Source: Dillenia suffruticosa (lineage: Eukaryota; Streptophyta; Magnoliopsida; Dilleniales; Dilleniaceae). Taken from it: a stretch of 64,000 nucleotides of DNA. Shown in pieces: positions 1 through 26,888 of the stretch. The notes under the pieces are model-generated. The model was not told where the DNA came from and did no database searches. It saw only the letters and a program-made list of their open reading frames with translations. The stretch spans positions 18,584,701-18,648,700 of the forward strand of contig JAVTVX010000016.1 in assembly GCA_033439265.1 (NCBI GenBank), written 5' to 3'. Position numbers and translations under genes: made by a program. Each line of letters opens with the position of its first letter. Position 1 is the stretch's first letter.

Positions 1-1206
1 AGAGATTGATCGTATTTTTTCAATTACTTTTGTCAATACAAATGAAACTGTATGGGAGACCGACACATAGTCATTCGAAAGAAATACAAGCAGTCCTCCT
101 ATTGAGTGTGGCAACTTACAAATTAAGAGTTATCCAAAACTCCAAAAATCTCAAAAGCTAGGACTCATCATGAAATTAAAAAGCCAATATTCATTCTAGG
201 ACAAGTTAAATATGTATAACTCAAAAAATATTAATTAAGTATTTCGTAAACATCCATCTAAATTCCCTAAAATTTATCATAATCCCCGTTGAATGTCCAT
301 TACACAAAGAATATGCCACAAAAAAGCATTACTAGGAATAGACCCGGGGAAAAAATACTAGTGAAGGAAAAAGAGTACAGTTTTCATGGCGTTTGACAGT
401 GTACTCGCAAACCCTGTTGGGTATATCAAATCAACATTAGTTTTAGAATTAGTAGAATGGAACAAGTCAAGTTCAGTTCTTTCTTGGAGATATCGAATAA
501 TACGTTTGATTGCATTCCGATGTCATCATGCAAAAGAAATTAAATCTTCTTAATGCATTCACAAAGAATGATATATTAGATCTTATACAATTAGTAAGGT
601 ACGTAAAAGAAATTCCTTAGGACCAATAAACTATTCAATTTTCTCCCGTGGTCTTAAAGTATCTTACTCAATGTCCAATGATCGGATTACCGTTCGGGTA
701 CTTAATAGATGTGTTTTATCGGTACAGAAATGTTTTAAAACTTTAGTCGTGTAATTTGATTAATGAATGAATATCTCATCTTCTAGACATTCAATTTGTA
801 AACAAAGATAATTTTTTTTTTTTTATTTCCAAAACCTCGATCCCAAATTTTCATTTTTAATATTCAATGGTTTTCAAAATCTCTACACGAGAGCCATTAA
901 AATTCAATGTTCCTTTGCAAATAATTAATGCGGGAAATTGCATTGTTTACCCCCTGATATCCATTATCATGATCACCGTTAGCTATCAAAACATTAAGTC
1001 ACATACACCATCTTTTAGAGAGGGAGAGGGAGACAGAGAGGGCAAGAGAGTAAGCTTGTTATTTAAGTCATATAATTTGTTATTAACTCACGTACATACA
1101 ATAAATGGAATGATAATGATGATAAATATTTGGAAAATTACCGGTACAAGGTAAAAACCTGCAACTTAAACAAAGTTTACCATCCACCAATTGGTTTGAC
1201 AACAAA

Positions 1207-1278
1207 TCCGTTGTCGTCCAGCGGTTAGGATGTCTGGCTTTCACCCAGGAGACCCGGGTTCGATTCCCGGCAACGGAA
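1207..1278 (+). tRNA. tRNA-Glu (anticodon UUC), monomer type A
   Basis: A complete 72-nt cloverleaf. Acceptor TCCGTTG pairs with CAACGGA, D stem GTCC with GGAT, anticodon stem TCTGG with CCAGG around loop CTTTCAC (anticodon TTC), and T stem CCGGG with CCCGG around TTCGATT. Discriminator is A. The B box GGTTCGATTCC is canonical. CAACAA lies just upstream, as in plant tRNA genes, but the TATATAAA seen about 40 bp upstream in types B and C is changed to TTAAACAAA here. The T-run that follows types B and C at about 65 nt is deleted; the first TTTT is at 1412. The body could be functional, but its flanking signals are weakened. The sequence is nuclear-type, not the plastid tRNA-Glu. Confidence 0.88.
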
Positions 1279-1368
1279 AGAGTAGAATCTTGATTGAAAC
1301 TCAAAATTGAAAATTGAATGAAATCTAGAGAGATTGATCGTATTTGAATACAAATGAAATCATATGGG

Positions 1369-1382
1369 AGACCGATATATAG
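1369..1382 (-). promoter_or_regulatory. Possible copia U3 TATA box inside each monomer (- strand)
   Basis: On the - strand the motif CCTATATATCGG stands in a conserved AT-rich block between the copia RNase H remnant and the antisense of the tRNA. That position would suit a 3' LTR promoter of the copia element from which the monomer derives. Equivalent motifs occur in nearly every monomer, for example near 2681 and 21340. No LTR ends were found, so this is tentative. Confidence 0.3.
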
Positions 1383-1579
1383 GCATTCGAAAGAAATACA
1401 AATAGTCCTCCTTTTAAGTGTGGCAACTTACAAATTAAGAGTTATCCAAAACTCCAAAAATCTCAACAGCTAGGACTTATCATGAAATTAAAAAGCCACT
1501 ATTCATTCTAAGACAAGTTAAATATTTATAACTTAAAAATATTTATTAAATATTTCATAAACAACCATCTAAATTCCCT

Positions 1580-2250
1580 AAAATTTTTAACAATCCCCGT
1601 TGAATGTCCATTACACAAAGAATATGCCACATAAAAGCATTACGAGGAATAGACCCAGGGAAAAAATACTAGCGAAGGAAAAAGAGTACCGTTTTCAAGG
1701 TGTTTGACAGTGTACTTGCAACCCCTATTGGGTATATCAAATCAACATTAGTTTTAGAAATAGTAGAATGGAACAAGTCAAGTTCAGTTATTTCTTGGAG
1801 ATATTGAATAACACGTTTGACCGCATTCCGATGTCATCATGTAGAAGAAAAATTAAATCTTCTTAATGCATTCACAAAGAATGATATATTAGATCTTATA
1901 CAATTAGCAAGGTACGTAAAAGAAATTCTTTAGGACTAATAAGCTATTCAATTTTCTCCCGTGGTCTTAAAGGATCTTACTCAATGTCCAATGATCGGAT
2001 TACCGTTCGGGTACTTCATAGATGTGTTCTATCCGTACAGAAATGTTTTAAAACTTTAGTATGGTAATTTGATTAATGAATGAATATCTAATCTTCTAGA
2101 TATTCAATTTGTAAACAAACGTAAAAATTTATTTTTCCAAAACCTCGATCCCAAATTTTCATTTTTAATATTCAATGGTTTTTAAAATCTCTAAACGAGA
2201 GCCATTGAGATTCAAAGATCCTTTGCAAATAATTAATGCGGCAAATTGCA
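1580..2250 (-). pseudogene. Copia RT C-terminus/RNase H remnant, monomer A
   Basis: Read on the - strand with frameshifts, this stretch matches the end of Ty1/copia RT and the start of RNase H. In order: a region like KTKFCLGLQIE (near 2110-2140), then RxxNAVKRVIQYLQEITELD (near 1765-1835), then a degenerate NVDLIYPIG block (about 1735). Stops and frameshifts are frequent. The same relic recurs in every type A monomer at +3946, +7893, +11840 and +15787. It lies downstream of the tRNA and in the opposite orientation. Confidence 0.7.
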
Positions 2251-2461
2251 TTGTTTATCCCTTGATATCCATTGTCATAATCATCGTTAGCCATCAAAAC
2301 ATTAAGTCACATACACCATCTTTTAGAGAGGGAGAGGGGGAGAGAGTAAGCTTGTTATTAACTTATATAATTTGTTATTAACTCACATGCATAGAATGAA
2401 TGGAATGATAATGATGATAAATATTTGGAAAATTACCGGTACAAGATAAAAACCTACAACT

Positions 2462-2501
2462 TATATAAAGTTTATCATCCACCAATTGGTTTGACAACAA
2501 A
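2462..2501 (+). promoter_or_regulatory. Plant-type external tRNA promoter (TATA and CAA) of the type B tRNA-Glu
   Basis: TATATAAA lies 40 to 33 bp upstream of the tRNA start, and CAACAA lies 7 to 2 bp upstream. Plant Pol III tRNA genes commonly show a TATA-like box and CAA motifs at about these distances. The same spacing is kept in type C (TATATAAA at 3786-3793) and in several edge monomers. In type A the TATA is lost. The motif and spacing are direct observations; activity is an inference. Confidence 0.55.
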
Positions 2502-2573
2502 TCCGTTGTCGTCCAGCGGTTAGGATATCTGGCTTTCACCCAGGAGACCCGGGTTCGATTCCCGGCAACGGAA
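2502..2573 (+). tRNA. tRNA-Glu (anticodon UUC), monomer type B, the most intact copy type
   Basis: All four stems pair fully. It differs from type A by one base at position 26 (GGATATCTGG). It has the upstream TATA and CAA, and a T7 run at 2638-2644, 65 nt past the 3' end. This is the only monomer type in which body, TATA box and T-run are all present, so it is the best candidate for an expressed gene. The trailer would be unusually long for a tRNA gene. Confidence 0.9.
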
Positions 2574-2879
2574 AGAGTAGAATCTTGATTGAAACTCAAA
2601 ATTGAAAATTGAATGAAATCTAGAGAGGTCGATCATATTTTTTTCTACTATTTTTGTGAATACGAATGAAATTATATGGGTGACCAATATATAGGCATTC
2701 GAATGAAATACAAATAGCCCTCCGATTAAGTGTGACAACTTACAAATTAAGAGTTACCCAAAACTCCAAAAATCTCAACAGCTAGGACTTATCATGAAAT
2801 TAAAAAGCCAATATTCATTCAAAGACAAGTTAAATATGTATAACTTAAAAACATTTATTAAATATTTCATAAACATCCA

Positions 2880-3560
2880 TCTATATTCCCAAAATTTTAT
2901 AACAATCCCCTTTGAAAGTCCATCATACAAAGAATATGCCACATAAAAGCATTAGTAGGAATAGACCCGGGGAAAAAATACCAGTGAAGGAAAAAGATTA
3001 GCATCTTCAGGGTGTTTGACAGTGTACTTGCAACCCCTATTGGGTATATCAAATCGACATTAGTTTTAGAATTAGTAGAATGGAACAAGTGAAGTTCAGT
3101 TATTTCTTGGAGATATCGAATAATACGTTTGACTGCATTCCGATGTCATCATGTAGATGAAAAATTAAATCTTCTTAATGCATTCGCAAAGAATGATATA
3201 TTAGATCTTATACAATTAGCAAGATACGTAAAAGAAATTCTTTAGGACCAACAAGCTATTCAATTTTCTCCCGTGGTCTTAAAGGATCTGTCTCAATGTC
3301 CAATGTTCGGATCACCTTTCGGGTACTTAATAGATGTGTTTTATCCGCACAGAAATGTTTTGAAATTTTAGTTGTGTAATTTGATTAATGAATGAATATC
3401 TCGTCTTCTAGATATTCAATTTGTAAACAAACGTAAAAATTTATTTTTCCAAAACCTCGATCCCAAATTTTCATTTTTAATATTGAATGGTTTTTAAAAT
3501 CTCTACATAAGAGCCATTAAGATTCAAAGATCCGTTGCAAATAATCAATATGGCAAATTG
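2880..3560 (-). pseudogene. Copia RT/RNase H remnant, monomer B
   Basis: Same domain order as monomer A. The RNase H part keeps a readable frame at 2897-3088 (FHSTNSKTNVDLIYPIGV). It recurs near 6826, 10773 and 14720. In the fifth unit the frame is shorter because of private changes. Confidence 0.7.
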
Positions 3561-3825
3561 CATTGTTTGCCCCTTGATATCCATTATCATGATCACCATT
3601 AGCCGTCAAAACATTAAGTCACATACACCATCGTTTTGAGAGGGAGGGGAATTGGGAGAGGGAGAGAGAGTAAGCTTGTTATTAAGTCATGTAATTTGTT
3701 ATTAACTCACATACATACAATGAATGGAATGATAATGATGATAAATATTTGAAAAATTACCGGTAAAAGATAAAAGCCTACAACTTATATAAAGTTTACC
3801 ATCCACCAATTGGTTTGACAACAAA

Positions 3826-3897
3826 TCCGTTGTCATCCGGTGGTTAGGATGTCTGGCTTTCACCAAGGAGACCCGGGTTCGATTCCCGGCAAAGCAA
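3826..3897 (+). tRNA. tRNA-Glu (UUC)-like, monomer type C, mispaired
   Basis: The 72-nt frame and TTC anticodon are kept. The acceptor 3' side is CAAAGCA (two mismatches) and the anticodon stem has one mismatch (CAAGG). TATATAAA at 3786 and T6 at 3962-3967 are present. It is probably a pseudogene with an intact promoter. Confidence 0.6.
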
Positions 3898-4199
3898 AGA
3901 GTAGAACCTTGATTGAAACTTAAAATTGAAAATTCAATGAAATCTAGAGAGATTGATCGTATTTTTTCAATTACTTTTGTCAATACAAATGAAACTGTAT
4001 GGGAGACCGACACATAGTCATTCGAAAGAAATACAAGCAGTCCTCCTATTGAGTGTGGCAACTTACAAATTAAGAGTTATCCAAAACTCCAAAAATCTCA
4101 AAAGCTAGGACTCATCATGAAATTAAAAAGCCAATATTCATTCTAGGACAAGTTAAATATGTATAACTCAAAAAATATTAATTAAGTATTTCGTAAACA

Positions 4200-4890
4200 T
4201 CCATCTAAATTCCCTAAAATTTATCATAATCCCCGTTGAATGTCCATTACACAAAGAATATGCCACAAAAAAGCATTACTAGGAATAGACCCGGGGAAAA
4301 AATACTAGTGAAGGAAAAAGAGTACAGTTTTCATGGCGTTTGACAGTGTACTCGCAAACCCTATTGGGTATATCAAATCAACATTAGTTTTAGAATTAGT
4401 AGAATGGAACAAGTCAAGTTCAGTTCTTTCTTGGAGATATCGAATAATACGTTTGATTGCATTCCGATGTCATCATGCAAAAGAAATTAAATCTTCTTAA
4501 TGCATTCACAAAGAATGATATATTAGATCTTATACAATTAGTAAGGTACGTAAAAGAAATTCCTTAGGACCAATAAACTATTCAATTTTCTCCCGTGGTC
4601 TTAAAGTATCTTACTCAATGTCCAATGATCGGATTACCGTTCGGGTACTTAATAGATGTGTTTTATCGGTACAGAAATGTTTTAAAACTTTAGTCGTGTA
4701 ATTTTATTAATGAATGAATATCTCATCTTCTAGACATTCAATTTGTAAACAAAGATAATTTTTTTTTTTTATTTCCAAAACCTCGATCCCAAATTTTCAT
4801 TTTTAATATTCAATGGTTTTCAAAATCTCTACACGAGAGCCATTAAAATTCAATGTTCCTTTGCAAATAATTAATGCGGGAAATTGCATT
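4200..4890 (-). pseudogene. Copia RT/RNase H remnant, monomer C
   Basis: Decayed copy of the same relic with a poly-T expansion near 4758. It recurs at intervals of one higher-order unit. Confidence 0.65.
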
Positions 4891-5152
4891 GTTTACCCCC
4901 TGATATCCATTATCATGATCACCGTTAGCTATCAAAACATTAAGTCACATACACCATCTTTTAGAGAGGGAGAGGGAGACAGAGAGGGCAAGAGAGTAAG
5001 CTTGTTATTTAAGTCATATAATTTGTTATTAACTCACGTACATACAATAAATGGAATGATAATGATGATAAATATTTGGAAAATTACCGGTACAAGGTAA
5101 AAACCTGCAACTTAAACAAAGTTTACCATCCACCAATTGGTTTGACAACAAA

Positions 5153-5224
5153 TCCGTTGTCGTCCAGCGGTTAGGATGTCTGGCTTTCACCCAGGAGACC
5201 CGGGTTCGATTCCCGGCAACGGAA
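5153..5224 (+). tRNA. tRNA-Glu (UUC), type A, repeat unit 2
   Basis: Identical to the copy at 1207, including the absent proximal T-run. Confidence 0.87.
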
Positions 5225-6447
5225 AGAGTAGAATCTTGATTGAAACTCAAAATTGAAAATTGAATGAAATCTAGAGAGATTGATCGTATTTGAATACAAA
5301 TGAAATCATATGGGAGACCGATATATAGGCATTCGAAAGAAATACAAATAGTCCTCCTTTTAAGTGTGGCAACTTACAAATTAAGAGTTATCCAAAACTC
5401 CAAAAATCTCAACAGCTAGGACTTATCATGAAATTAAAAAGCCACTATTCATTCTAAGACAAGTTAAATATTTATAACTTAAAAATATTTATTAAATATT
5501 TCATAAACAACCATCTAAATTCCCTAAAATTTTTAACAATCCCCGTTGAATGTCCATTACACAAAGAATATGCCACATAAAAGCATTACGAGGAATAGAC
5601 CCAGGGAAAAAATACTAGCGAAGGAAAAAGAGTACCGTTTTCAAGGTGTTTGACAGTGTACTTGCAACCCCTATTGGGTATATCAAATCAACATTAGTTT
5701 TAGAAATAGTAGAATGGAACAAGTCAAGTTCAGTTATTTCTTGGAGATATTGAATAACACGTTTGACCGCATTCCGATGTCATCATGTAGAAGAAAAATT
5801 AAATCTTCTTAATGCATTCACAAAGAATGATATATTAGATCTTATACAATTAGCAAGGTACGTAAAAGAAATTCTTTAGGACTAATAAGCTATTCAATTT
5901 TCTCCCGTGGTCTTAAAGGATCTTACTCAATGTCCAATGATCGGATTACCGTTCGGGTACTTCATAGATGTGTTCTATCCGTACAGAAATGTTTTAAAAC
6001 TTTAGTATGGTAATTTGATTAATGAATGAATATCTAATCTTCTAGATATTCAATTTGTAAACAAACGTAAAAATTTATTTTTCCAAAACCTCGATCCCAA
6101 ATTTTCATTTTTAATATTCAATGGTTTTTAAAATCTCTAAACGAGAGCCATTGAGATTCAAAGATCCTTTGCAAATAATTAATGCGGCAAATTGCATTGT
6201 TTATCCCTTGATATCCATTGTCATAATCATCGTTAGCCATCAAAACATTAAGTCACATACACCATCTTTTAGAGAGGGAGAGGGGGAGAGAGTAAGCTTG
6301 TTATTAACTTATATAATTTGTTATTAACTCACATGCATAGAATGAATGGAATGATAATGATGATAAATATTTGGAAAATTACCGGTACAAGATAAAAACC
6401 TACAACTTATATAAAGTTTATCATCCACCAATTGGTTTGACAACAAA

Positions 6448-6519
6448 TCCGTTGTCGTCCAGCGGTTAGGATATCTGGCTTTCACCCAGGAGACCCGGGT
6501 TCGATTCCCGGCAACGGAA
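6448..6519 (+). tRNA. tRNA-Glu (UUC), type B, repeat unit 2
   Basis: Identical to the copy at 2502; TATATAAA and T-run retained. Confidence 0.89.
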
Positions 6520-7771
6520 AGAGTAGAATCTTGATTGAAACTCAAAATTGAAAATTGAATGAAATCTAGAGAGGTCGATCATATTTTTTTCTACTATTTT
6601 TGTGAATACGAATGAAATTATATGGGTGACCAATATATAGGCATTCGAATGAAATACAAATAGCCCTCCGATTAAGTGTGACAACTTACAAATTAAGAGT
6701 TACCCAAAACTCCAAAAATCTCAACAGCTAGGACTTATCATGAAATTAAAAAGCCAATATTCATTCAAAGACAAGTTAAATATGTATAACTTAAAAACAT
6801 TTATTAAATATTTCATAAACATCCATCTATATTCCCAAAATTTTATAACAATCCCCTTTGAAAGTCCATCATACAAAGAATATGCCACATAAAAGCATTA
6901 GTAGGAATAGACCCGGGGAAAAAATACCAGTGAAGGAAAAAGATTAGCATCTTCAGGGTGTTTGACAGTGTACTTGCAACCCCTATTGGGTATATCAAAT
7001 CGACATTAGTTTTAGAATTAGTAGAATGGAACAAGTGAAGTTCAGTTATTTCTTGGAGATATCGAATAATACGTTTGACTGCATTCCGATGTCATCATGT
7101 AGATGAAAAATTAAATCTTCTTAATGCATTCGCAAAGAATGATATATTAGATCTTATACAATTAGCAAGATACGTAAAAGAAATTCTTTAGGACCAACAA
7201 GCTATTCAATTTTCTCCCGTGGTCTTAAAGGATCTGTCTCAATGTCCAATGTTCGGATCACCTTTCGGGTACTTAATAGATGTGTTTTATCCGCACAGAA
7301 ATGTTTTGAAATTTTAGTTGTGTAATTTGATTAATGAATGAATATCTCGTCTTCTAGATATTCAATTTGTAAACAAACGTAAAAATTTATTTTTCCAAAA
7401 CCTCGATCCCAAATTTTCATTTTTAATATTGAATGGTTTTTAAAATCTCTACATAAGAGCCATTAAGATTCAAAGATCCGTTGCAAATAATCAATATGGC
7501 AAATTGCATTGTTTGCCCCTTGATATCCATTATCATGATCACCATTAGCCGTCAAAACATTAAGTCACATACACCATCGTTTTGAGAGGGAGGGGAATTG
7601 GGAGAGGGAGAGAGAGTAAGCTTGTTATTAAGTCATGTAATTTGTTATTAACTCACATACATACAATGAATGGAATGATAATGATGATAAATATTTGAAA
7701 AATTACCGGTAAAAGATAAAAGCCTACAACTTATATAAAGTTTACCATCCACCAATTGGTTTGACAACAAA

Positions 7772-7843
7772 TCCGTTGTCATCCGGTGGTTAGGATGTCT
7801 GGCTTTCACCAAGGAGACCCGGGTTCGATTCCCGGCAAAGCAA
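7772..7843 (+). tRNA. tRNA-Glu-like, type C, repeat unit 2
   Basis: Same three stem mismatches as the copy at 3826. Confidence 0.6.
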
Positions 7844-9099
7844 AGAGTAGAACCTTGATTGAAACTTAAAATTGAAAATTCAATGAAATCTAGAGAGATT
7901 GATCGTATTTTTTCAATTACTTTTGTCAATACAAATGAAACTGTATGGGAGACCGACACATAGTCATTCGAAAGAAATACAAGCAGTCCTCCTATTGAGT
8001 GTGGCAACTTACAAATTAAGAGTTATCCAAAACTCCAAAAATCTCAAAAGCTAGGACTCATCATGAAATTAAAAAGCCAATATTCATTCTAGGACAAGTT
8101 AAATATGTATAACTCAAAAAATATTAATTAAGTATTTCGTAAACATCCATCTAAATTCCCTAAAATTTATCATAATCCCCGTTGAATGTCCATTACACAA
8201 AGAATATGCCACAAAAAAGCATTACTAGGAATAGACCCGGGGAAAAAATACTAGTGAAGGAAAAAGAGTACAGTTTTCATGGCGTTTGACAGTGTACTCG
8301 CAAACCCTATTGGGTATATCAAATCAACATTAGTTTTAGAATTAGTAGAATGGAACAAGTCAAGTTCAGTTCTTTCTTGGAGATATCGAATAATACGTTT
8401 GATTGCATTCCGATGTCATCATGCAAAAGAAATTAAATCTTCTTAATGCATTCACAAAGAATGATATATTAGATCTTATACAATTAGTAAGGTACGTAAA
8501 AGAAATTCCTTAGGACCAATAAACTATTCAATTTTCTCCCGTGGTCTTAAAGTATCTTACTCAATGTCCAATGATCGGATTACCGTTCGGGTACTTAATA
8601 GATGTGTTTTATCGGTACAGAAATGTTTTAAAACTTTAGTCGTGTAATTTGATTAATGAATGAATATCTCATCTTCTAGACATTCAATTTGTAAACAAAG
8701 ATAATTTTTTTTTTTTTATTTCCAAAACCTCGATCCCAAATTTTCATTTTTAATATTCAATGGTTTTCAAAATCTCTACACGAGAGCCATTAAAATTCAA
8801 TGTTCCTTTGCAAATAATTAATGCGGGAAATTGCATTGTTTACCCCCTGATATCCATTATCATGATCACCGTTAGCTATCAAAACATTAAGTCACATACA
8901 CCATCTTTTAGAGAGGGAGAGGGAGACAGAGAGGGCAAGAGAGTAAGCTTGTTATTTAAGTCATATAATTTGTTATTAACTCACGTACATACAATAAATG
9001 GAATGATAATGATGATAAATATTTGGAAAATTACCGGTACAAGGTAAAAACCTGCAACTTAAACAAAGTTTACCATCCACCAATTGGTTTGACAACAAA

Positions 9100-9171
9100 T
9101 CCGTTGTCGTCCAGCGGTTAGGATGTCTGGCTTTCACCCAGGAGACCCGGGTTCGATTCCCGGCAACGGAA
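9100..9171 (+). tRNA. tRNA-Glu (UUC), type A, repeat unit 3
   Basis: Identical to the copy at 1207. Confidence 0.87.
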
Positions 9172-10394
9172 AGAGTAGAATCTTGATTGAAACTCAAAAT
9201 TGAAAATTGAATGAAATCTAGAGAGATTGATCGTATTTGAATACAAATGAAATCATATGGGAGACCGATATATAGGCATTCGAAAGAAATACAAATAGTC
9301 CTCCTTTTAAGTGTGGCAACTTACAAATTAAGAGTTATCCAAAACTCCAAAAATCTCAACAGCTAGGACTTATCATGAAATTAAAAAGCCACTATTCATT
9401 CTAAGACAAGTTAAATATTTATAACTTAAAAATATTTATTAAATATTTCATAAACAACCATCTAAATTCCCTAAAATTTTTAACAATCCCCGTTGAATGT
9501 CCATTACACAAAGAATATGCCACATAAAAGCATTACGAGGAATAGACCCAGGGAAAAAATACTAGCGAAGGAAAAAGAGTACCGTTTTCAAGGTGTTTGA
9601 CAGTGTACTTGCAACCCCTATTGGGTATATCAAATCAACATTAGTTTTAGAAATAGTAGAATGGAACAAGTCAAGTTCAGTTATTTCTTGGAGATATTGA
9701 ATAACACGTTTGACCGCATTCCGATGTCATCATGTAGAAGAAAAATTAAATCTTCTTAATGCATTCACAAAGAATGATATATTAGATCTTATACAATTAG
9801 CAAGGTACGTAAAAGAAATTCTTTAGGACTAATAAGCTATTCAATTTTCTCCCGTGGTCTTAAAGGATCTTACTCAATGTCCAATGATCGGATTACCGTT
9901 CGGGTACTTCATAGATGTGTTCTATCCGTACAGAAATGTTTTAAAACTTTAGTATGGTAATTTGATTAATGAATGAATATCTAATCTTCTAGATATTCAA
10001 TTTGTAAACAAACGTAAAAATTTATTTTTCCAAAACCTCGATCCCAAATTTTCATTTTTAATATTCAATGGTTTTTAAAATCTCTAAACGAGAGCCATTG
10101 AGATTCAAAGATCCTTTGCAAATAATTAATGCGGCAAATTGCATTGTTTATCCCTTGATATCCATTGTCATAATCATCGTTAGCCATCAAAACATTAAGT
10201 CACATACACCATCTTTTAGAGAGGGAGAGGGGGAGAGAGTAAGCTTGTTATTAACTTATATAATTTGTTATTAACTCACATGCATAGAATGAATGGAATG
10301 ATAATGATGATAAATATTTGGAAAATTACCGGTACAAGATAAAAACCTACAACTTATATAAAGTTTATCATCCACCAATTGGTTTGACAACAAA

Positions 10395-10466
10395 TCCGTT
10401 GTCGTCCAGCGGTTAGGATATCTGGCTTTCACCCAGGAGACCCGGGTTCGATTCCCGGCAACGGAA
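10395..10466 (+). tRNA. tRNA-Glu (UUC), type B, repeat unit 3
   Basis: Identical to the copy at 2502. Confidence 0.89.
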
Positions 10467-11718
10467 AGAGTAGAATCTTGATTGAAACTCAAAATTGAAA
10501 ATTGAATGAAATCTAGAGAGGTCGATCATATTTTTTTCTACTATTTTTGTGAATACGAATGAAATTATATGGGTGACCAATATATAGGCATTCGAATGAA
10601 ATACAAATAGCCCTCCGATTAAGTGTGACAACTTACAAATTAAGAGTTACCCAAAACTCCAAAAATCTCAACAGCTAGGACTTATCATGAAATTAAAAAG
10701 CCAATATTCATTCAAAGACAAGTTAAATATGTATAACTTAAAAACATTTATTAAATATTTCATAAACATCCATCTATATTCCCAAAATTTTATAACAATC
10801 CCCTTTGAAAGTCCATCATACAAAGAATATGCCACATAAAAGCATTAGTAGGAATAGACCCGGGGAAAAAATACCAGTGAAGGAAAAAGATTAGCATCTT
10901 CAGGGTGTTTGACAGTGTACTTGCAACCCCTATTGGGTATATCAAATCGACATTAGTTTTAGAATTAGTAGAATGGAACAAGTGAAGTTCAGTTATTTCT
11001 TGGAGATATCGAATAATACGTTTGACTGCATTCCGATGTCATCATGTAGATGAAAAATTAAATCTTCTTAATGCATTCGCAAAGAATGATATATTAGATC
11101 TTATACAATTAGCAAGATACGTAAAAGAAATTCTTTAGGACCAACAAGCTATTCAATTTTCTCCCGTGGTCTTAAAGGATCTGTCTCAATGTCCAATGTT
11201 CGGATCACCTTTCGGGTACTTAATAGATGTGTTTTATCCGCACAGAAATGTTTTGAAATTTTAGTTGTGTAATTTGATTAATGAATGAATATCTCGTCTT
11301 CTAGATATTCAATTTGTAAACAAACGTAAAAATTTATTTTTCCAAAACCTCGATCCCAAATTTTCATTTTTAATATTGAATGGTTTTTAAAATCTCTACA
11401 TAAGAGCCATTAAGATTCAAAGATCCGTTGCAAATAATCAATATGGCAAATTGCATTGTTTGCCCCTTGATATCCATTATCATGATCACCATTAGCCGTC
11501 AAAACATTAAGTCACATACACCATCGTTTTGAGAGGGAGGGGAATTGGGAGAGGGAGAGAGAGTAAGCTTGTTATTAAGTCATGTAATTTGTTATTAACT
11601 CACATACATACAATGAATGGAATGATAATGATGATAAATATTTGAAAAATTACCGGTAAAAGATAAAAGCCTACAACTTATATAAAGTTTACCATCCACC
11701 AATTGGTTTGACAACAAA

Positions 11719-11790
11719 TCCGTTGTCATCCGGTGGTTAGGATGTCTGGCTTTCACCAAGGAGACCCGGGTTCGATTCCCGGCAAAGCAA
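11719..11790 (+). tRNA. tRNA-Glu-like, type C, repeat unit 3
   Basis: Same mismatches as the copy at 3826. Confidence 0.6.
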
Positions 11791-13046
11791 AGAGTAGAAC
11801 CTTGATTGAAACTTAAAATTGAAAATTCAATGAAATCTAGAGAGATTGATCGTATTTTTTCAATTACTTTTGTCAATACAAATGAAACTGTATGGGAGAC
11901 CGACACATAGTCATTCGAAAGAAATACAAGCAGTCCTCCTATTGAGTGTGGCAACTTACAAATTAAGAGTTATCCAAAACTCCAAAAATCTCAAAAGCTA
12001 GGACTCATCATGAAATTAAAAAGCCAATATTCATTCTAGGACAAGTTAAATATGTATAACTCAAAAAATATTAATTAAGTATTTCGTAAACATCCATCTA
12101 AATTCCCTAAAATTTATCATAATCCCCGTTGAATGTCCATTACACAAAGAATATGCCACAAAAAAGCATTACTAGGAATAGACCCGGGGAAAAAATACTA
12201 GTGAAGGAAAAAGAGTACAGTTTTCATGGCGTTTGACAGTGTACTCGCAAACCCTATTGGGTATATCAAATCAACATTAGTTTTAGAATTAGTAGAATGG
12301 AACAAGTCAAGTTCAGTTCTTTCTTGGAGATATCGAATAATACGTTTGATTGCATTCCGATGTCATCATGCAAAAGAAATTAAATCTTCTTAATGCATTC
12401 ACAAAGAATGATATATTAGATCTTATACAATTAGTAAGGTACGTAAAAGAAATTCCTTAGGACCAATAAACTATTCAATTTTCTCCCGTGGTCTTAAAGT
12501 ATCTTACTCAATGTCCAATGATCGGATTACCGTTCGGGTACTTAATAGATGTGTTTTATCGGTACAGAAATGTTTTAAAACTTTAGTCGTGTAATTTGAT
12601 TAATGAATGAATATCTCATCTTCTAGACATTCAATTTGTAAACAAAGATAATTTTTTTTTTTTTATTTCCAAAACCTCGATCCCAAATTTTCATTTTTAA
12701 TATTCAATGGTTTTCAAAATCTCTACACGAGAGCCATTAAAATTCAATGTTCCTTTGCAAATAATTAATGCGGGAAATTGCATTGTTTACCCCCTGATAT
12801 CCATTATCATGATCACCGTTAGCTATCAAAACATTAAGTCACATACACCATCTTTTAGAGAGGGAGAGGGAGACAGAGAGGGCAAGAGAGTAAGCTTGTT
12901 ATTTAAGTCATATAATTTGTTATTAACTCACGTACATACAATAAATGGAATGATAATGATGATAAATATTTGGAAAATTACCGGTACAAGGTAAAAACCT
13001 GCAACTTAAACAAAGTTTACCATCCACCAATTGGTTTGACAACAAA

Positions 13047-13118
13047 TCCGTTGTCGTCCAGCGGTTAGGATGTCTGGCTTTCACCCAGGAGACCCGGGTT
13101 CGATTCCCGGCAACGGAA
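13047..13118 (+). tRNA. tRNA-Glu (UUC), type A, repeat unit 4
   Basis: Identical to the copy at 1207. Confidence 0.87.
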
Positions 13119-14341
13119 AGAGTAGAATCTTGATTGAAACTCAAAATTGAAAATTGAATGAAATCTAGAGAGATTGATCGTATTTGAATACAAATGAAAT
13201 CATATGGGAGACCGATATATAGGCATTCGAAAGAAATACAAATAGTCCTCCTTTTAAGTGTGGCAACTTACAAATTAAGAGTTATCCAAAACTCCAAAAA
13301 TCTCAACAGCTAGGACTTATCATGAAATTAAAAAGCCACTATTCATTCTAAGACAAGTTAAATATTTATAACTTAAAAATATTTATTAAATATTTCATAA
13401 ACAACCATCTAAATTCCCTAAAATTTTTAACAATCCCCGTTGAATGTCCATTACACAAAGAATATGCCACATAAAAGCATTACGAGGAATAGACCCAGGG
13501 AAAAAATACTAGCGAAGGAAAAAGAGTACCGTTTTCAAGGTGTTTGACAGTGTACTTGCAACCCCTATTGGGTATATCAAATCAACATTAGTTTTAGAAA
13601 TAGTAGAATGGAACAAGTCAAGTTCAGTTATTTCTTGGAGATATTGAATAACACGTTTGACCGCATTCCGATGTCATCATGTAGAAGAAAAATTAAATCT
13701 TCTTAATGCATTCACAAAGAATGATATATTAGATCTTATACAATTAGCAAGGTACGTAAAAGAAATTCTTTAGGACTAATAAGCTATTCAATTTTCTCCC
13801 GTGGTCTTAAAGGATCTTACTCAATGTCCAATGATCGGATTACCGTTCGGGTACTTCATAGATGTGTTCTATCCGTACAGAAATGTTTTAAAACTTTAGT
13901 ATGGTAATTTGATTAATGAATGAATATCTAATCTTCTAGATATTCAATTTGTAAACAAACGTAAAAATTTATTTTTCCAAAACCTCGATCCCAAATTTTC
14001 ATTTTTAATATTCAATGGTTTTTAAAATCTCTAAACGAGAGCCATTGAGATTCAAAGATCCTTTGCAAATAATTAATGCGGCAAATTGCATTGTTTATCC
14101 CTTGATATCCATTGTCATAATCATCGTTAGCCATCAAAACATTAAGTCACATACACCATCTTTTAGAGAGGGAGAGGGGGAGAGAGTAAGCTTGTTATTA
14201 ACTTATATAATTTGTTATTAACTCACATGCATAGAATGAATGGAATGATAATGATGATAAATATTTGGAAAATTACCGGTACAAGATAAAAACCTACAAC
14301 TTATATAAAGTTTATCATCCACCAATTGGTTTGACAACAAA

Positions 14342-14413
14342 TCCGTTGTCGTCCAGCGGTTAGGATATCTGGCTTTCACCCAGGAGACCCGGGTTCGATT
14401 CCCGGCAACGGAA
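14342..14413 (+). tRNA. tRNA-Glu (UUC), type B, repeat unit 4
   Basis: Identical to the copy at 2502. Confidence 0.89.
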
Positions 14414-15665
14414 AGAGTAGAATCTTGATTGAAACTCAAAATTGAAAATTGAATGAAATCTAGAGAGGTCGATCATATTTTTTTCTACTATTTTTGTGAA
14501 TACGAATGAAATTATATGGGTGACCAATATATAGGCATTCGAATGAAATACAAATAGCCCTCCGATTAAGTGTGACAACTTACAAATTAAGAGTTACCCA
14601 AAACTCCAAAAATCTCAACAGCTAGGACTTATCATGAAATTAAAAAGCCAATATTCATTCAAAGACAAGTTAAATATGTATAACTTAAAAACATTTATTA
14701 AATATTTCATAAACATCCATCTATATTCCCAAAATTTTATAACAATCCCCTTTGAAAGTCCATCATACAAAGAATATGCCACATAAAAGCATTAGTAGGA
14801 ATAGACCCGGGGAAAAAATACCAGTGAAGGAAAAAGATTAGCATCTTCAGGGTGTTTGACAGTGTACTTGCAACCCCTATTGGGTATATCAAATCGACAT
14901 TAGTTTTAGAATTAGTAGAATGGAACAAGTGAAGTTCAGTTATTTCTTGGAGATATCGAATAATACGTTTGACTGCATTCCGATGTCATCATGTAGATGA
15001 AAAATTAAATCTTCTTAATGCATTCGCAAAGAATGATATATTAGATCTTATACAATTAGCAAGATACGTAAAAGAAATTCTTTAGGACCAACAAGCTATT
15101 CAATTTTCTCCCGTGGTCTTAAAGGATCTGTCTCAATGTCCAATGTTCGGATCACCTTTCGGGTACTTAATAGATGTGTTTTATCCGCACAGAAATGTTT
15201 TGAAATTTTAGTTGTGTAATTTGATTAATGAATGAATATCTCGTCTTCTAGATATTCAATTTGTAAACAAACGTAAAAATTTATTTTTCCAAAACCTCGA
15301 TCCCAAATTTTCATTTTTAATATTGAATGGTTTTTAAAATCTCTACATAAGAGCCATTAAGATTCAAAGATCCGTTGCAAATAATCAATATGGCAAATTG
15401 CATTGTTTGCCCCTTGATATCCATTATCATGATCACCATTAGCCGTCAAAACATTAAGTCACATACACCATCGTTTTGAGAGGGAGGGGAATTGGGAGAG
15501 GGAGAGAGAGTAAGCTTGTTATTAAGTCATGTAATTTGTTATTAACTCACATACATACAATGAATGGAATGATAATGATGATAAATATTTGAAAAATTAC
15601 CGGTAAAAGATAAAAGCCTACAACTTATATAAAGTTTACCATCCACCAATTGGTTTGACAACAAA

Positions 15666-15737
15666 TCCGTTGTCATCCGGTGGTTAGGATGTCTGGCTTT
15701 CACCAAGGAGACCCGGGTTCGATTCCCGGCAAAGCAA
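15666..15737 (+). tRNA. tRNA-Glu-like, type C, repeat unit 4
   Basis: Same mismatches as the copy at 3826; the last type C copy before the array edge. Confidence 0.6.
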
Positions 15738-16993
15738 AGAGTAGAACCTTGATTGAAACTTAAAATTGAAAATTCAATGAAATCTAGAGAGATTGATCGT
15801 ATTTTTTCAATTACTTTTGTCAATACAAATGAAACTGTATGGGAGACCGACACATAGTCATTCGAAAGAAATACAAGCAGTCCTCCTATTGAGTGTGGCA
15901 ACTTACAAATTAAGAGTTATCCAAAACTCCAAAAATCTCAAAAGCTAGGACTCATCATGAAATTAAAAAGCCAATATTCATTCTAGGACAAGTTAAATAT
16001 GTATAACTCAAAAAATATTAATTAAGTATTTCGTAAACATCCATCTAAATTCCCTAAAATTTATCATAATCCCCGTTGAATGTCCATTACACAAAGAATA
16101 TGCCACAAAAAAGCATTACTAGGAATAGACCCGGGGAAAAAATACTAGTGAAGGAAAAAGAGTACAGTTTTCATGGCGTTTGACAGTGTACTCGCAAACC
16201 CTATTGGGTATATCAAATCAACATTAGTTTTAGAATTAGTAGAATGGAACAAGTCAAGTTCAGTTCTTTCTTGGAGATATCGAATAATACGTTTGATTGC
16301 ATTCCGATGTCATCATGCAAAAGAAATTAAATCTTCTTAATGCATTCACAAAGAATGATATATTAGATCTTATACAATTAGTAAGGTACGTAAAAGAAAT
16401 TCCTTAGGACCAATAAACTATTCAATTTTCTCCCGTGGTCTTAAAGTATCTTACTCAATGTCCAATGATCGGATTACCGTTCGGGTACTTAATAGATGTG
16501 TTTTATCGGTACAGAAATGTTTTAAAACTTTAGTCGTGTAATTTGATTAATGAATGAATATCTCATCTTCTAGACATTCAATTTGTAAACAAAGATAATT
16601 TTTTTTTTTTTATTTCCAAAACCTCGATCCCAAATTTTCATTTTTAATATTCAATGGTTTTCAAAATCTCTACACGAGAGCCATTAAAATTCAATGTTCC
16701 TTTGCAAATAATTAATGCGGGAAATTGCATTGTTTACCCCCTGATATCCATTATCATGATCACCGTTAGCTATCAAAACATTAAGTCACATACACCATCT
16801 TTTAGAGAGGGAGAGGGAGACAGAGAGGGCAAGAGAGTAAGCTTGTTATTTAAGTCATATAATTTGTTATTAACTCACGTACATACAATAAATGGAATGA
16901 TAATGATGATAAATATTTGGAAAATTACCGGTACAAGGTAAAAACCTGCAACTTAAACAAAGTTTACCATCCACCAATTGGTTTGACAACAAA

Positions 16994-17065
16994 TCCGTTG
17001 TCGTCCAGCGGTTAGGATGTCTGGCTTTCACCCAGGAGACCCGGGTTCGATTCCCGGCAACGGAA
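16994..17065 (+). tRNA. tRNA-Glu (UUC), type A, repeat unit 5
   Basis: Identical to the copy at 1207. Confidence 0.87.
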
Positions 17066-18288
17066 AGAGTAGAATCTTGATTGAAACTCAAAATTGAAAA
17101 TTGAATGAAATCTAGAGAGATTGATCGTATTTGAATACAAATGAAATCATATGGGAGACCGATATATAGGCATTCGAAAGAAATACAAATAGTCCTCCTT
17201 TTAAGTGTGGCAACTTACAAATTAAGAGTTATCCAAAACTCCAAAAATCTCAACAGCTAGGACTTATCATGAAATTAAAAAGCCACTATTCATTCTAAGA
17301 CAAGTTAAATATTTATAACTTAAAAATATTTATTAAATATTTCATAAACAACCATCTAAATTCCCTAAAATTTTTAACAATCCCCGTTGAATGTCCATTA
17401 CACAAAGAATATGCCACATAAAAGCATTACGAGGAATAGACCCAGGGAAAAAATACTAGCGAAGGAAAAAGAGTACCGTTTTCAAGGTGTTTGACAGTGT
17501 ACTTGCAACCCCTATTGGGTATATCAAATCAACATTAGTTTTAGAAATAGTAGAATGGAACAAGTCAAGTTCAGTTATTTCTTGGAGATATTGAATAACA
17601 CGTTTGACCGCATTCCGATGTCATCATGTAGAAGAAAAATTAAATCTTCTTAATGCATTCACAAAGAATGATATATTAGATCTTATACAATTAGCAAGGT
17701 ACGTAAAAGAAATTCTTTAGGACTAATAAGCTATTCAATTTTCTCCCGTGGTCTTAAAGGATCTTACTCAATGTCCAATGATCGGATTACCGTTCGGGTA
17801 CTTCATAGATGTGTTCTATCCGTACAGAAATGTTTTAAAACTTTAGTATGGTAATTTGATTAATGAATGAATATCTAATCTTCTAGATATTCAATTTGTA
17901 AACAAACGTAAAAATTTATTTTTCCAAAACCTCGATCCCAAATTTTCATTTTTAATATTCAATGGTTTTTAAAATCTCTAAACGAGAGCCATTGAGATTC
18001 AAAGATCCTTTGCAAATAATTAATGCGGCAAATTGCATTGTTTATCCCTTGATATCCATTGTCATAATCATCGTTAGCCATCAAAACATTAAGTCACATA
18101 CACCATCTTTTAGAGAGGGAGAGGGGGAGAGAGTAAGCTTGTTATTAACTTATATAATTTGTTATTAACTCACATGCATAGAATGAATGGAATGATAATG
18201 ATGATAAATATTTGGAAAATTACCGGTACAAGATAAAAACCTACAACTTATATAAAGTTTATCATCCACCAATAGGTTTGACAACAAA

Positions 18289-18360
18289 TCCGTTGTCGTC
18301 CAGCGGTTAGGATATCTGGCTTTCACCCAGGAGACCCGGGTTCGATTCCCGGCAACGGAA
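18289..18360 (+). tRNA. tRNA-Glu (UUC), type B, repeat unit 5
   Basis: The body is identical to 2502. The upstream flank has a private change (aatAggttt, about 15 bp upstream) not seen in the other type B copies. Confidence 0.88.
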
Positions 18361-19612
18361 AGAGTAGAATCTTGATTGAAACTCAAAATTGAAAATTGAA
18401 TGAAATCTAGAGAGGTCGATCATATTTTTTTCTACTATTTTTGTGAATACGAATGAAATTATATGGGTGACCAATATATAGGCATTCGAATGAAATACAA
18501 ATAGCCCTCCGATTAAGTGTGACAACTTACAAATTAAGAGTTACCCAAAACTCCAAAAATCTCAACAGCTAGGACTTATCATGAAATTAAAAAGCCAATA
18601 TTCATTCAAAGACAAGTTAAATATGTATAACTTAAAAACATTTATTAAATATTTCATAAACATCCATCTATATTCCCAAAATTTTATAACAATCCCCTTT
18701 GAAAGTCCATCATACAAAGAATATGCCACATAAAAGCATTAGTAGGAATAGACCCGGGGAAAAAATACTAGTGAAGGAAAAAGATTAGCATCTTCAGGGT
18801 GTTTGACAGTGTACTTGCAACCCCTATTGGGTATATCAAATCGACATTAGTTTTAGAATTAGTAGAATGGAACAAGTGAAGTTCAGTTATTTCTTGGAGA
18901 TATCGAATAATACGTTTGACTGCATTCCGATGTCATCATGTAGATGAAAAATTAAATCTTCTTAATGCATTCGCAAAGAATGATATATTAGATCTTATAC
19001 AATTAGCAAGATACGTAAAAGAAATTCTTTAGGACCAATAAGCTATTCAATTTTCTCCCGTGGTCTTAAAGGATCTGTCTCAATGTCCAATGTTCGGATC
19101 ACCTTTCGGGTACTTAATAGACGTGTTTTATCCGCACAGAAATGTTTTGAAATTTTAGTTGTGTAATTTGATTAATGAATGAATATCTCGTCTTCTAGAT
19201 ATTCAATTTATAAACAAACGTAAAAATTTATTTTTCCAAAACCTCGATCCCAAATTTTCATTTTTAATATTGAATGGTTTTTAAAATCTCTACATGAGAG
19301 CCATTAAAATTCAAAGATCCTTTACAAATAATTAATGCGGGAAATTTCATTTTTTACCCCTTGACATCCCTTATCTTGATCACCGTTAGCTATCAAAATA
19401 TTAATTCACATACACCATCTTTTAGAGAGGGAGAGGGAGAGGGAGAGGGCAAGAGAGTAAACTTGTTATTTAGTCATATAATTTGTTATTAACTCATGTA
19501 CATGCATTGAATGGAATGATAATGATGATAAATATTTAGAAAATTACCGGTACAAGATAAAAACCTACAACTTATATAAAGTTTACCATCCACCAGTTGG
19601 TTTGACAACCAA

Positions 19613-19684
19613 TCCGTTGTCATCCAGCGGTTAGGATGTCTGGCTTTCACCCAGAAGACCCGGGTTCGATTCTTAGCAACGGAA
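19613..19684 (+). tRNA. tRNA-Glu (UUC)-like, first edge monomer
   Basis: Acceptor, D and anticodon stems pair (TCTGG/CCAGA). The 3' side of the T stem has decayed to CTTAG, leaving one mismatch and two G-T wobbles. TATATAAA is present upstream. Confidence 0.6.
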
Positions 19685-20943
19685 AGAGTAGAATCTTGAT
19701 TGAAACTCAAAATTGAAAATTGAATGAAATCTTGGGAGATTGATCATGTTTTTTCTATTATTTTTGTGAATACAATTGAAATTATATGAGAGACCAATAT
19801 ATAAGCATTCGAAAGAAATACAAATAGTCCTCCGATTAAGTGCGGCAACATACAAATTAAGAGTTATCCAAAACTCCAAAAATCTCAAGAGCTAGGATTT
19901 ATCATGTAATTAAAAAGCCAATATTCATTCTAAGACAAGTTAAATATGTATAACTTAAAAACATTTATTAAATATTTCATAAACATTCATCGAAATTTCC
20001 TAAAATTTATAACAATCCCCTTTGAATATCCCCTTTGAATGTCCATTACACAAAGAATATGCCACATAAAAACATTATTAGGAATAATCTCAGGAAAAAA
20101 TATTAGTGAAGGAAAAAGAGTACCGTTTTCAAGGTGTTTGACAGTGTACTGCAACCCCTATTGGGTATATCAAATCAACATTAGTTTTAGAATTAGTAGA
20201 ATGGAACAAGTCAAGTTCAGTTATTTTTTAGAGATATCGAATAATACGTTTGACTGCATTCCGATGTCATCATGTAGAAGAAAAATTAAATCTTCTTAAT
20301 GCGTTCACAAAGAATGATATATTAGATCTTATACAATTATCTAGCTTCGTAAAAGAAATTGTTTAGGATCAATAAGGTATTCAGTTTTCTCATGTGACCT
20401 TAAAGGATCTTTCTCAATGTCCAATGATCGGATTACCATTCGGGTACTCAATAGATGTGTTTTGTCCTTATAGAAATGTTTTAAAACTTTAGTTGTGTAA
20501 TTTGATTAAAGAATGAATATCTCATCTTCTAGATATTCAATTTGTAAACAAACGTAAAAATTTATTTTTCCAAAACCTCGATCCCAAATTTTCATTTTTA
20601 ATATTCAATGATTTTTAAAATCTCTACATGAGATTTGCAAATAATTAATACGGGAAATTGCATTGTTTACCCCTTGATATCCAATATCAAGATCACTGTT
20701 AGCCATCAAAACATTAAGTCACATACACCATCTTTTAGAGAGGAAGAGGGAGACGGAGTGGGAGACGGAGATGGAGACGGAGAGAGAGTAAGCTTGTTAT
20801 TAAGTCATATAATTTGTTATTAACTCACATACATATGATGAATGGAATGACAGTGATGATAAATATTTGGAAAATTATTGGTAGAAGATAAAAACCTGCA
20901 AGCTATATAAAGTTTACCATCCACCAATTGGTTTGACAACAAA

Positions 20944-21015
20944 TCCGTTGTCATCCAGCGGTTAGGATGTCTGGCTTTCACCCCAGAGACCCGGGTTCAA
21001 TTCCCGACAACGGAA
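20944..21015 (+). pseudogene. tRNA-Glu pseudogene
   Basis: 72 nt with a TTC anticodon. The anticodon-stem 3' side is CCCAG (two mismatches) and the T stem ends CCCGA (one mismatch). Confidence 0.6.
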
Positions 21016-21071
21016 AGATTAGAATCTTGACTGAAACTCAAAATTGAAAATTGAATGAAATCTAGAGAGAT

Positions 21072-21506
21072 TGATCATATTTTTTCTATTATTTTTGTGA
21101 AAACAAATGAAATTATATGGGAGACCAATATACAGGAATTCGAAAGAAATACAAATAGTCCTCCTATTAAGTGTGGCAACTTACAAATTAAGAGTTATCC
21201 AAAACTCCAAAAATCTCAAAAGCTAGGACTTATCATGAAATTAAAAAGCCAATATTCATTCTAAGACAAGTTAAATATGTATAACTTAAGATCATATTTT
21301 TTCTATTATTTTTGTGAATACAAATGAAATTATATGGGAGACCGATATATAGGCATTCGAAAGAAATACAAATAGTCCTCCTATTAAGTGTGGCAACTTA
21401 CAAATGATGAGTTATCCAAAACTCCAAAAATCTCAACAGCTTGGACTTATCATGAAATTAAAAAGTTAATATTCATTCTAAGACAAGTTAAATATGTATA
21501 AGTTAA
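21072..21506. repeat. 218-bp tandem duplication inside an edge monomer
   Basis: The block beginning atcatattttttctattatt occurs at 21072 and again at 21290, each running to the tatgtataa motif. The copies differ by several substitutions, so this is not a very recent event. Confidence 0.8.
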
Positions 21507-22399
21507 AAACATTTATTAAATATTTCAAAAACATCCATCTAAATTCCCTTAAATTTATAACCATCCCCGTTGAATGTCCATTACACAAAGAATATGCCAC
21601 ATAAAAGCATTACTAGGAATAAACCTAGGGAAAAAATACTGGTGAAGGAAAAAGAGTACCATTTTCAAGGTGTTTGATAGTGTACTTGCAACCCCTATTG
21701 GATATATTTACTATCAACATAAGTTTTAGAATTAGTAGAATGGAACAAGTCAAGATCGTTTATTCGTCGGAGAATGATATATTAGATCTTATACAATTAG
21801 CAAGGTACGTAAAAGAAATTCTTTAGGACCAATAAGCTATTCAATTTTCTCCCGTGATCTTAAAGGATCTTTCTCAATGTTCAGTGATCCGATTACCATT
21901 CGGGTACTTAATAGATGTGTCTTATCCATATAGAAATGTTTTAAAATTTTAGTTGTGTAATTTGATTAATGATTGAATATCTTATCTTCTATAAGTTCAA
22001 TTTGTAAACAAACCCAAAATTTTATTTTTCCAAAACCTGGATCTCAAATTTTCATTTTAAATATTCAATAGTTTTTAAAATCTTTACATGAGAGCCATTA
22101 AAATTCAAAGATTCTTTGCAAATAATTAATGCGGCAAATTGCATTGTTTAACCCTTGATATCCATTATCATGATCACCGTTAGCCATCAAAATATTAAGT
22201 TACATACACCATCTTTTTGAGAGAGAGGGAGAGGGAGAGAGAGTAAGCTTGTTATTAAGTTTTTTAATTTGTTATTAACTCACATACATACAAAGAATGG
22301 AATGATAATGATGATAAATATTTGGAAAATTATCAAAACAAGATAAAACCCTACAACTTATATAAAGTTTACCATCCACCAACTCGTTTTGACAACAAA

Positions 22400-22471
22400 T
22401 CCGTTGTCATCCAGCGTTTAGGATGTTTGGCTTTCATCCAGGAGACCCGGGTTCGATTCCCGGCAACAGAA
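22400..22471 (+). pseudogene. tRNA-Glu pseudogene
   Basis: The D loop has lost the GG pair (AGCGTTTA), and the acceptor 3' side CAACAGA has one mismatch. TTC anticodon is kept. Confidence 0.6.
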
Positions 22472-23341
22472 AGAATACAATTTTAATTGAAGCTCAAAAT
22501 AAAAAATTGAACGAAATGTCGAGAGATTCATCTTATGTTCTCTATTGTTTTTCTGTCTTCCAATGAAATTATGGGGGGAGACCTATATATCGGCACTTTT
22601 GAAATAAATATAAGGTCCTAAGTGTGGCAACTTAAAAATTAAGAGTTACCCTAAAACCCAAAAGTCTCAAAAGTTAAGAGTCGACAGGAAATAAAAAATC
22701 TAGTGGTCATTCTAACTCAAGTTAAATGCAATGTAGAGATATAAAGCTTGCTCTAATACATTCACAACGAACGATACATTAGGTCTTGTGCAATTAGTGA
22801 TGTACATAAGTGCTCTACTTGAATTAAGATATGGTACCTAAGGACTAAGAAGTTCTTTTTTCTGCCATGGTATGAAAAGATCATTGTCAATTGCAAGTTA
22901 TAGGATGACCATTGACGTACTCAATGGACGTGTTTTATCCAAATAGATTGTTTTAAAACGTTAATAGTATAAGTAGATTGATGAATGAATCTCTCATCTT
23001 CTAGATGTTCAATTTGTAAACAAAGGCAAAATTATGTTTTTCCAAAATCCTGGGTCTCAAATTCTCCTTTTAAATATTCAATGGCTTTGAAAATTTCTCC
23101 AACAAGATTCAAAGATCCTTTGTAAATAATGAGTACCATAAATTGCATGTACAAGTTTACACATTGATATCCATTTTCCCCATCGCCATTAACAAACAAA
23201 ACATTAAGTCAAATACGCCATCTTTTAGAGGTAGAGAGAGAGAGATACCGATAAGTTGTTATTAATTCACATACATATAAATAATGGGAATGATAACGAT
23301 GATAAATATTTGGGATAATAAAAAAACATGACAAAAACACA

Positions 23342-23346
23342 CCACT
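23342..23346. repeat. Target-site duplication, left (CCACT)
   Basis: Exact 5-bp match to 26843-26847, immediately outside TG. Confidence 0.85.
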
Positions 23347-23390
23347 TGTAACACCGACACTGCGGTGTCCGTAAAAGAGTACCATTTTCG

Positions 23391-23392
<2 letters not shown>

Positions 23393-23429
<37 letters not shown>
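23393..23429. repeat. (AT)n microsatellite in the solo LTR
   Basis: Uninterrupted AT dinucleotides over about 37 bp. Confidence 0.95.
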
Positions 23430-23432
<3 letters not shown>

Positions 23433-23903: not shown

Positions 23904-23929
23904 CCTCTCAGTTTCTCTCTCACAGTTCT

Positions 23930-26847: not shown

Positions 26848-26888
26848 TGGATAAAGTTGATCATCTAGGAATTAGTTTCAATAACCAA

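Follow-up and report, generated by a model that had tools for sequence, protein, structure and literature searches.

The window analysed here, a stretch of 64,000 nucleotides from the Dillenia suffruticosa genome (GenBank assembly GCA_033439265.1, contig JAVTVX010000016.1, positions 18,584,701 to 18,648,700 of the forward strand), opens with a tandem array whose kilobase-scale monomers combine a glutamate transfer RNA (tRNA) sequence, tRNA-Glu(UUC), on the plus strand with a relic of a Ty1/copia retrotransposon on the minus strand. About the left third of the window, together with an older layer of diverged monomers, is tandem array (Table 1). In the young layer, a repeat with a period of 3,946-3,947 bp, made up of the monomers a (1295 bp), b (1324 bp) and c (1327-1328 bp), is present in 4.89 copies across positions 1 to about 19,288. 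Compared with itself at a distance of one period, this layer is 99.935% identical, with 8 mismatches and 2 gap bases in 15,344 alignment columns, and with a, b and c inside one unit being 89-91% alike, the trimers are far more similar than the monomers of which they consist (99.94% vs 89-91%), which is the mark of a higher-order repeat. Given this length and identity, a chance origin of the periodicity can be regarded as excluded. The three interior units (5153-9099, 9100-13046 and 13047-16993) show no differences among each other, and the unit at 1207-5152 differs from them at two positions. The b monomer at 18289 follows the trimer sequence until about 19,288, with 4 differences over the initial 1000 bp as opposed to 40 over the 324 bp that follow. 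An earlier note on this DNA, made from the sequence alone, was thus right about the trimer unit and its approximately 4.9 copies, and its array end at about 19,290 coincides with the break of the pattern inside this monomer.

Beyond this point, diverged monomers extend the array as far as 34,654 according to the monomer map. Three D-type monomers (D_22400, D_28196 and D_33767) are about 75% like the A-type monomers past their first ~130 bp, and the A-type monomers of the right edge have 82-93% identity to a, b and c; the tRNA scores at this edge are 33-53 bits. In addition, self-BLAST reveals a D+A dimer in this part of the array, as 26840-28262 aligns with 29215-30633 at 89.2% and 22471-23346 with 28330-29222 at 89.1%, and this dimer layer is older than the trimer layer. 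The old layer also contains a 3.5-kb insertion (23347-26842) which follows a D copy, has TGTAACACC...GGTGTGACA (TG...CA) ends and the 5-bp repeat CCACT on both sides, holds a CTT microsatellite as well as GC-rich minisatellites, and looks like a solo long terminal repeat (LTR) or another LTR-type insertion. A 217-bp tandem duplication, 94% alike, lies at 21073-21506 inside an old-layer monomer.

All 14 tRNA copies in 1..19,290 are 72 nt long, and to this extent the statement of the earlier note that every monomer has a full-length tRNA-Glu(UUC) holds; as to intactness it does not, since only the ten copies of a and b are intact, whereas all four c copies are degenerate by their Rfam scores (Table 1) and differ from the a tRNA at 6 of 72 sites, including sites in the acceptor and anticodon stems. 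In all, 23 tRNA-derived stretches were found by BLASTN with an a copy as query, 21 of them over the Rfam cut-off, and ARAGORN made 16 calls, one typed as Val and one untyped. The quality of the copies was ranked by Rfam score and not by folding energy, which did not separate good from bad among nine tRNA copies (z -2.81 to +0.05). The array tRNA-Glu is presumably of the nuclear rather than the plastid type. Monomer b has the TATA-like motif TATATAAA 40 bp before the tRNA, CAA shortly before it and a run of seven T 65 nt downstream; in monomer a the TATA-like box is lost and there is no run of four T within 90 bp.

With respect to the antisense part, the read-through of the copia reverse transcriptase (RT) that resides at the right edge of the array matched 340 of 396 candidates at E<=0.001 in a protein search. 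The best 120 of these 340, among which all those with an organism in the name are from flowering plants, were used in all tblastn runs. With these, minus-strand copia was detected in 14 of 14 distinct monomers, with best E values from 1.4e-13 to 7.5e-41, which bears out the claim of an antisense copia RT/ribonuclease H (RNase H) relic in each monomer. In monomer b, P0001 matches at 3480-3187 (E 6e-21) and P0012 at 3235-3056. In the two monomers with the furthest-reaching tblastn match, c and D_28196, copia stops short of the 5' end of the next tRNA by 267 and 257 bp, respectively, and these similar end points suggest one origin. Of six array frames only that of D_28196 matched Pfam, namely RVT_2 at profile positions 152-242 with 17.3 bits, under the curated cut-off, and two read-throughs of the a/b/c type had no Pfam match, so that Pfam alone would have missed most of the copia sequence in the array. 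The protein search with the D_28196 frame yielded 446 candidates, none of them at E<=0.001. Matches of the monomer RT/RNase H frames in PDB, two leucine-rich-repeat entries with a best E of 0.0047, were taken as unrelated.

At the right edge the copia sequence runs on from the last monomer into the flank, with tblastn matches being unbroken from 34.2 to 35.3 kb and bins of over 20 matches occurring up to 35.2 kb. The resident flank matches RVT_2 at profile positions 74-153 (E 3e-8, 33.9 bits, above the cut-off) and 27-62 (E 4e-5, below the cut-off), which together with the tblastn matches in all distinct monomers identifies the antisense part as copia-type RT. The RVT_2 segments are in order, 27-62 and 74-153 lying in the right flank and 152-242 in D_28196. 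On the simplest reading of this sequence, the tandem duplication probably took place in the copia relic at the right edge.

Table 1. Position, strand and basis of the features of the tRNA-Glu/copia array and its right flank
Feature	Position	Strand	Basis and remarks
Young layer, trimer a-b-c x 4.89	1..19288		identity, breakpoint; cut by the left edge of the window
Intact tRNA-Glu(TTC), monomer a	1207..1278; also 5153, 9100, 13047, 16994	+	ARAGORN; Rfam 64.7 bits
Intact tRNA-Glu(TTC), monomer b	2502..2573; also 6448, 10395, 14342, 18289	+	ARAGORN; Rfam 64.9 bits
Putative copia 3' LTR, monomer b	2574..2904	-	inferred; TGTTATAAAATT at its start, preceded by a purine-rich tract; CTATATAT inside; other end contiguous with the tRNA 3' end
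Copia RNase H and C-terminal RT relic, monomer b	2905..3565	-	tblastn; limits approximate
5' flank of the next tRNA gene, with TATATAAA and CAA	3566..3825	+	copia boundary approximate
Degenerate tRNA-Glu, monomer c	3826..3897; also 7772, 11719, 15666	+	Rfam 38.3 bits; no ARAGORN call
Old layer: monomers that are diverged, truncated or rearranged, among them D-type ones at 22400, 28196 and 33767	19289..34654		monomer map, self-BLAST, tree
Older higher-order layer, D+A dimer twice, with ~89% identity between the two, one of them interrupted by an insertion	22400..30566		self-BLAST
Last monomer on the right, D_33767; its + strand has a degenerate tRNA, its - strand an LTR-like part and the end of a copia RT that passes into the resident copia	33767..34654	-	
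Resident copia RT, same relic continued, probable founding site	34655..35300	-	RVT_2, protein search, tblastn

The order in which the monomers arose was approached by maximum-likelihood (ML) trees, of which the first comprised 17 rows with two of each trimer monomer and a midpoint root, and the later ones 14 rows with one of each, the further near-identical trimer units being excluded. In the midpoint-rooted ML tree the D copies, D_33767 among them, group on one side; on the A side, x_32539, which lies beside the right-edge anchor, splits first, and a, b and c lie deepest, with right-hand neighbours. With the D clade as outgroup, the node depth of 11 A-type monomers correlates with their position (rho -0.80, with 55 of 20,000 shuffles as extreme), and rho was negative in 98.6% of 1000 bootstrap trees. 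The three of 14 monomers closest to P0001 by bit score are all found in the right part of the array (x_32539 with 129 and 64% identity, D_28196 with 115 and D_33767 with 100), the other 11 scoring 50-84, and a, b and c among them 74-84.

The copia frames are separated from the tRNA by about 330 bp, which were aligned across nine monomers and scanned for patterns. The best-kept copy of this interval, x_32539, contains CTATATATAG and opens with AAGGGGGAA/TGTTATAAA, which we take to be the polypurine tract and the LTR start of a copia element. The tRNA-adjacent stretch may accordingly be read as a copia 3' LTR short of some terminal nucleotides. The terminal TTATAACA of one D copy had been considered as an LTR end and was dropped, as neighbouring copies read otherwise. 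A 63-bp tandem repeat of 2.9 copies (33840-34020) directly follows the rightmost tRNA in the LTR-like part, with two copies of it in D_28196 and one in D_22400. With one LTR-like stretch and broken frames, the monomer is not a complete copia element, which would have two LTRs and an open gag-pol.

Taken together, it is proposed with a probability of roughly 0.8 that a nuclear tRNA-Glu gene and the copia relic next to it were duplicated together and then amplified by unequal exchange as a local tandem tRNA array. A Ty1/copia element, now a relic, would have come to sit in antisense orientation immediately on the 3' side of a tRNA-Glu(UUC) gene, and a tandem duplication would then have taken in a segment that starts about 260 bp before the tRNA gene and ends midway through the copia RT. 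Further unequal exchange might have led to diverging monomers and later to the D+A dimer, and in the latest step the a-b-c trimer would have been amplified to the 4.9 copies of the assembly with almost no divergence, while old copies and uncut copia would have been retained at the right edge. Unequal exchange as the process and the direction of growth are what we infer; that the array originated from a retroelement beside a tRNA and grew by unequal exchange, as the earlier note had put it, is well supported by the attached copia relic, the depth of the tree by position and the two higher-order layers of different age.

A number of observations weigh against this scenario. At the supposed founding site, D_33767 is without the RNase H part, as in other D copies, and there is a rearrangement at 34,654, and it is therefore not a pristine founder; the RT-end piece of D_33767 itself gave no RVT_2 match in Pfam, and an integrase upstream of the resident RT, read by eye, was unsupported by Pfam and by the protein search (8 candidates, 0 matches). 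The LTR-like stretch reaches the tRNA 3' end directly without the expected CA, the last LTR nucleotides were not found, and there is no partner LTR within 34,655-64,000. As to the order in time, the correlation is weaker when only the 8 monomers beyond the young layer are taken (rho -0.68, p 0.06), rooting in the D clade is assumed, and two of the D copies sit inside the old layer, off its edge. There is also no smooth gradient in the copia part, the truncated right-hand monomers x_26889, x_30567 and x_31701 having the lowest scores to P0001 (50-54). Finally, the array is cut by the left edge of the window, and its growth from one side is therefore only likely.

The right-hand remainder of the window has further repeats of its own. 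Two direct repeats of 482 bp, 98% identical and 6.5 kb apart (50678-57706), enclose a weak gag-pre-integrase match, below the cut-off, and RT matches by tblastn, and are probably part of a young plus-strand LTR element of the copia type. A second broken copia RT/RNase H relic, detected by tblastn and by RVT_2 just above the Pfam cut-off in one frame, lies on the plus strand at 61818-63163, and a degenerate 42-bp minisatellite forms two blocks at 42089-42190 and 42658-43145.

As for rival explanations, the number of identical units might be a product of the assembly, the assembler having multiplied one or two real trimers on top of an older array that is itself real. The zero differences among three interior units of 3,947 bp each would fit this, but the remaining units carry differences of their own, namely a base at 416, a base and a change in the length of a T run within 4705-4758, and bases at 18,274 and 18,769 with more beyond, which leaves this explanation unlikely. 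As the monomers up to 34,654 are diverged and individually distinct, the array as such is real. Alternatively, the array could be an edge of a genuine satellite family that occupies many loci and may be centromeric. Centromeric satellites have a higher-order structure with older copies towards the edge, and both are found here; however, the evidence comes from one locus, and a kilobase monomer with a tRNA gene better fits a local tRNA gene (tDNA) cluster, so that such a family is rated as quite unlikely. A dispersed element sitting in tandem, such as a tRNA-derived short interspersed nuclear element (SINE), would account for a tRNA-like head joined to retroelement sequence, and is nevertheless hardly probable at all: the 72-nt tRNA is embedded in common flanks, the 5' one being related in all 13 copies examined, it is followed by no A- or T-tail, and the monomers stand head to tail (target-site duplications were not systematically searched). 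Very unlikely, too, is a copia insertion, or a captured complementary DNA (cDNA), precisely at the 3' end of a tRNA gene transcribed by RNA polymerase III, with fragility or transcription of the tRNA gene driving the layered growth. The plus-strand order of tRNA and antisense LTR is that of a primer tRNA joined to minus-strand cDNA, but the gene-like 5' flank of the tRNA is kept, CCA is absent from the tRNA/LTR junction and the LTR end is without CA. Were this true, a plant satellite would have been seeded by the insertion of a retrotransposon targeted to a tRNA gene.

A functional dose array, selected to supply tRNA-Glu(UUC) like the tissue-activated SYY (Ser-Tyr-Tyr) cluster of Arabidopsis, has likewise a small chance of being the right explanation. 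For it speak the 10 of 14 young-layer copies that are intact, as well as a tRNA that is less diverged than the rest of the monomer in the pairs a-b (1/72 vs 91/1223 sites, Fisher 0.029), a-D_28196 and b-D_28196 (5/72 and 6/72 vs ~25-27%, Fisher 1.1e-4 and 1.5e-4). However, in six of the nine tested pairs (28 pairs were computed) the divergence of the tRNA was not significantly below that of the rest, and selection on the tRNA, although tested, was not established. A segment of 50-58 bp that follows the tRNA of D_28196 likewise resembles a and b more closely (~12-14% different) than the remainder of the monomer does, so that a recombination boundary accounts for part of the low tRNA divergence. 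One third of the trimer is moreover a degenerate copy that has been amplified along, and monomer a is without the upstream box and the nearby T run mentioned above. Judged by sequence, the intact a and b genes could be transcribable; by analogy with the Arabidopsis clusters, it is somewhat more probable that they are redundant passengers, largely silenced. C-to-T type changes in seven monomers, counted per site and sequence with shared descent ignored, amount to 0.112 at CG, 0.062 at CHG and 0.045 at CHH sites, being 2.5 times commoner at CG than at CHH, and this CG-biased excess would be compatible with methylation.

Compared with known systems, an array of this kind is less unfamiliar than the earlier note had it, because SYY, tRNA-Cys/Helitron clusters and a human tRNA repeat are in print. 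The SYY cluster of Arabidopsis thaliana consists of tandem tDNA units with a core grown by tandem duplication and flanks rich in variants and pseudogenes, and the array resembles it in its tandem tDNA units, homogeneous core and variable edge, whereas SYY has other tRNAs and, in the available text of that report, no retrotransposon is named within its unit (PMC12308677). In the tRNA-Cys cluster on chromosome 5 of A. thaliana, 0.4-kb units that are 84-94% alike overlap Helitrons, copy number varies by whole units and a pseudogene lies at one edge; there, too, a tDNA unit is combined with a transposable element, but with Helitrons instead of copia, in units of 0.4 kb and with no higher-order layer described in the text available (PMC10701932). 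The human tRNA variable number tandem repeat at 1q23.3 has a 7.3 kb unit, 98% alike, with LTR flanks of endogenous retroviruses (ERV) and a small ERVK fragment in each unit, and is thus also a kilobase-scale tandem tDNA unit with LTR-element sequence; unlike the present array, it is described as GC-rich and CTCF-bound, with several tRNA genes per unit and 9-43 units per allele (PMC4041453). Satellites derived from LTR retrotransposons are likewise reviewed, e.g. sobo of Solanum bulbocastanum, in which LTR retroelement sequence has become a tandem repeat as it has here, while no tRNA gene is mentioned for sobo in the passages concerned (PMC9659126).

Among tandem plant tDNA clusters, for which at least three genes of the same isoacceptor in head-to-tail units can be asked, the array takes its place with 10 intact tRNA-Glu(TTC) genes in 1..19,290 and, at its right edge, with a homogeneous core giving way to pseudogene-rich copies. 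Its density of one tDNA per ~1.3 kb lies below the at least three tDNAs per kb by which clusters have been defined elsewhere, which suggests that a survey with this requirement, as it is worded there, would miss kilobase-spaced tDNA arrays (PMC11700998). In the literature covered, mostly judged by titles and the beginnings of abstracts and with most subscription papers outside its scope, no report of a tRNA-Glu/copia tandem array was recognised. The present case suggests that tRNA gene counts can change via passengers of a repeat. The origins of tandem repeats are usually erased, whereas here ~35 kb hold what is probably the founding site next to both the old layer of dimers and the young layer of trimers, and the steps from a single tRNA-retroelement junction to a higher-order array are directly readable. 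In addition to features known from the systems described above, the array shows two higher-order layers and what is probably its founding site.

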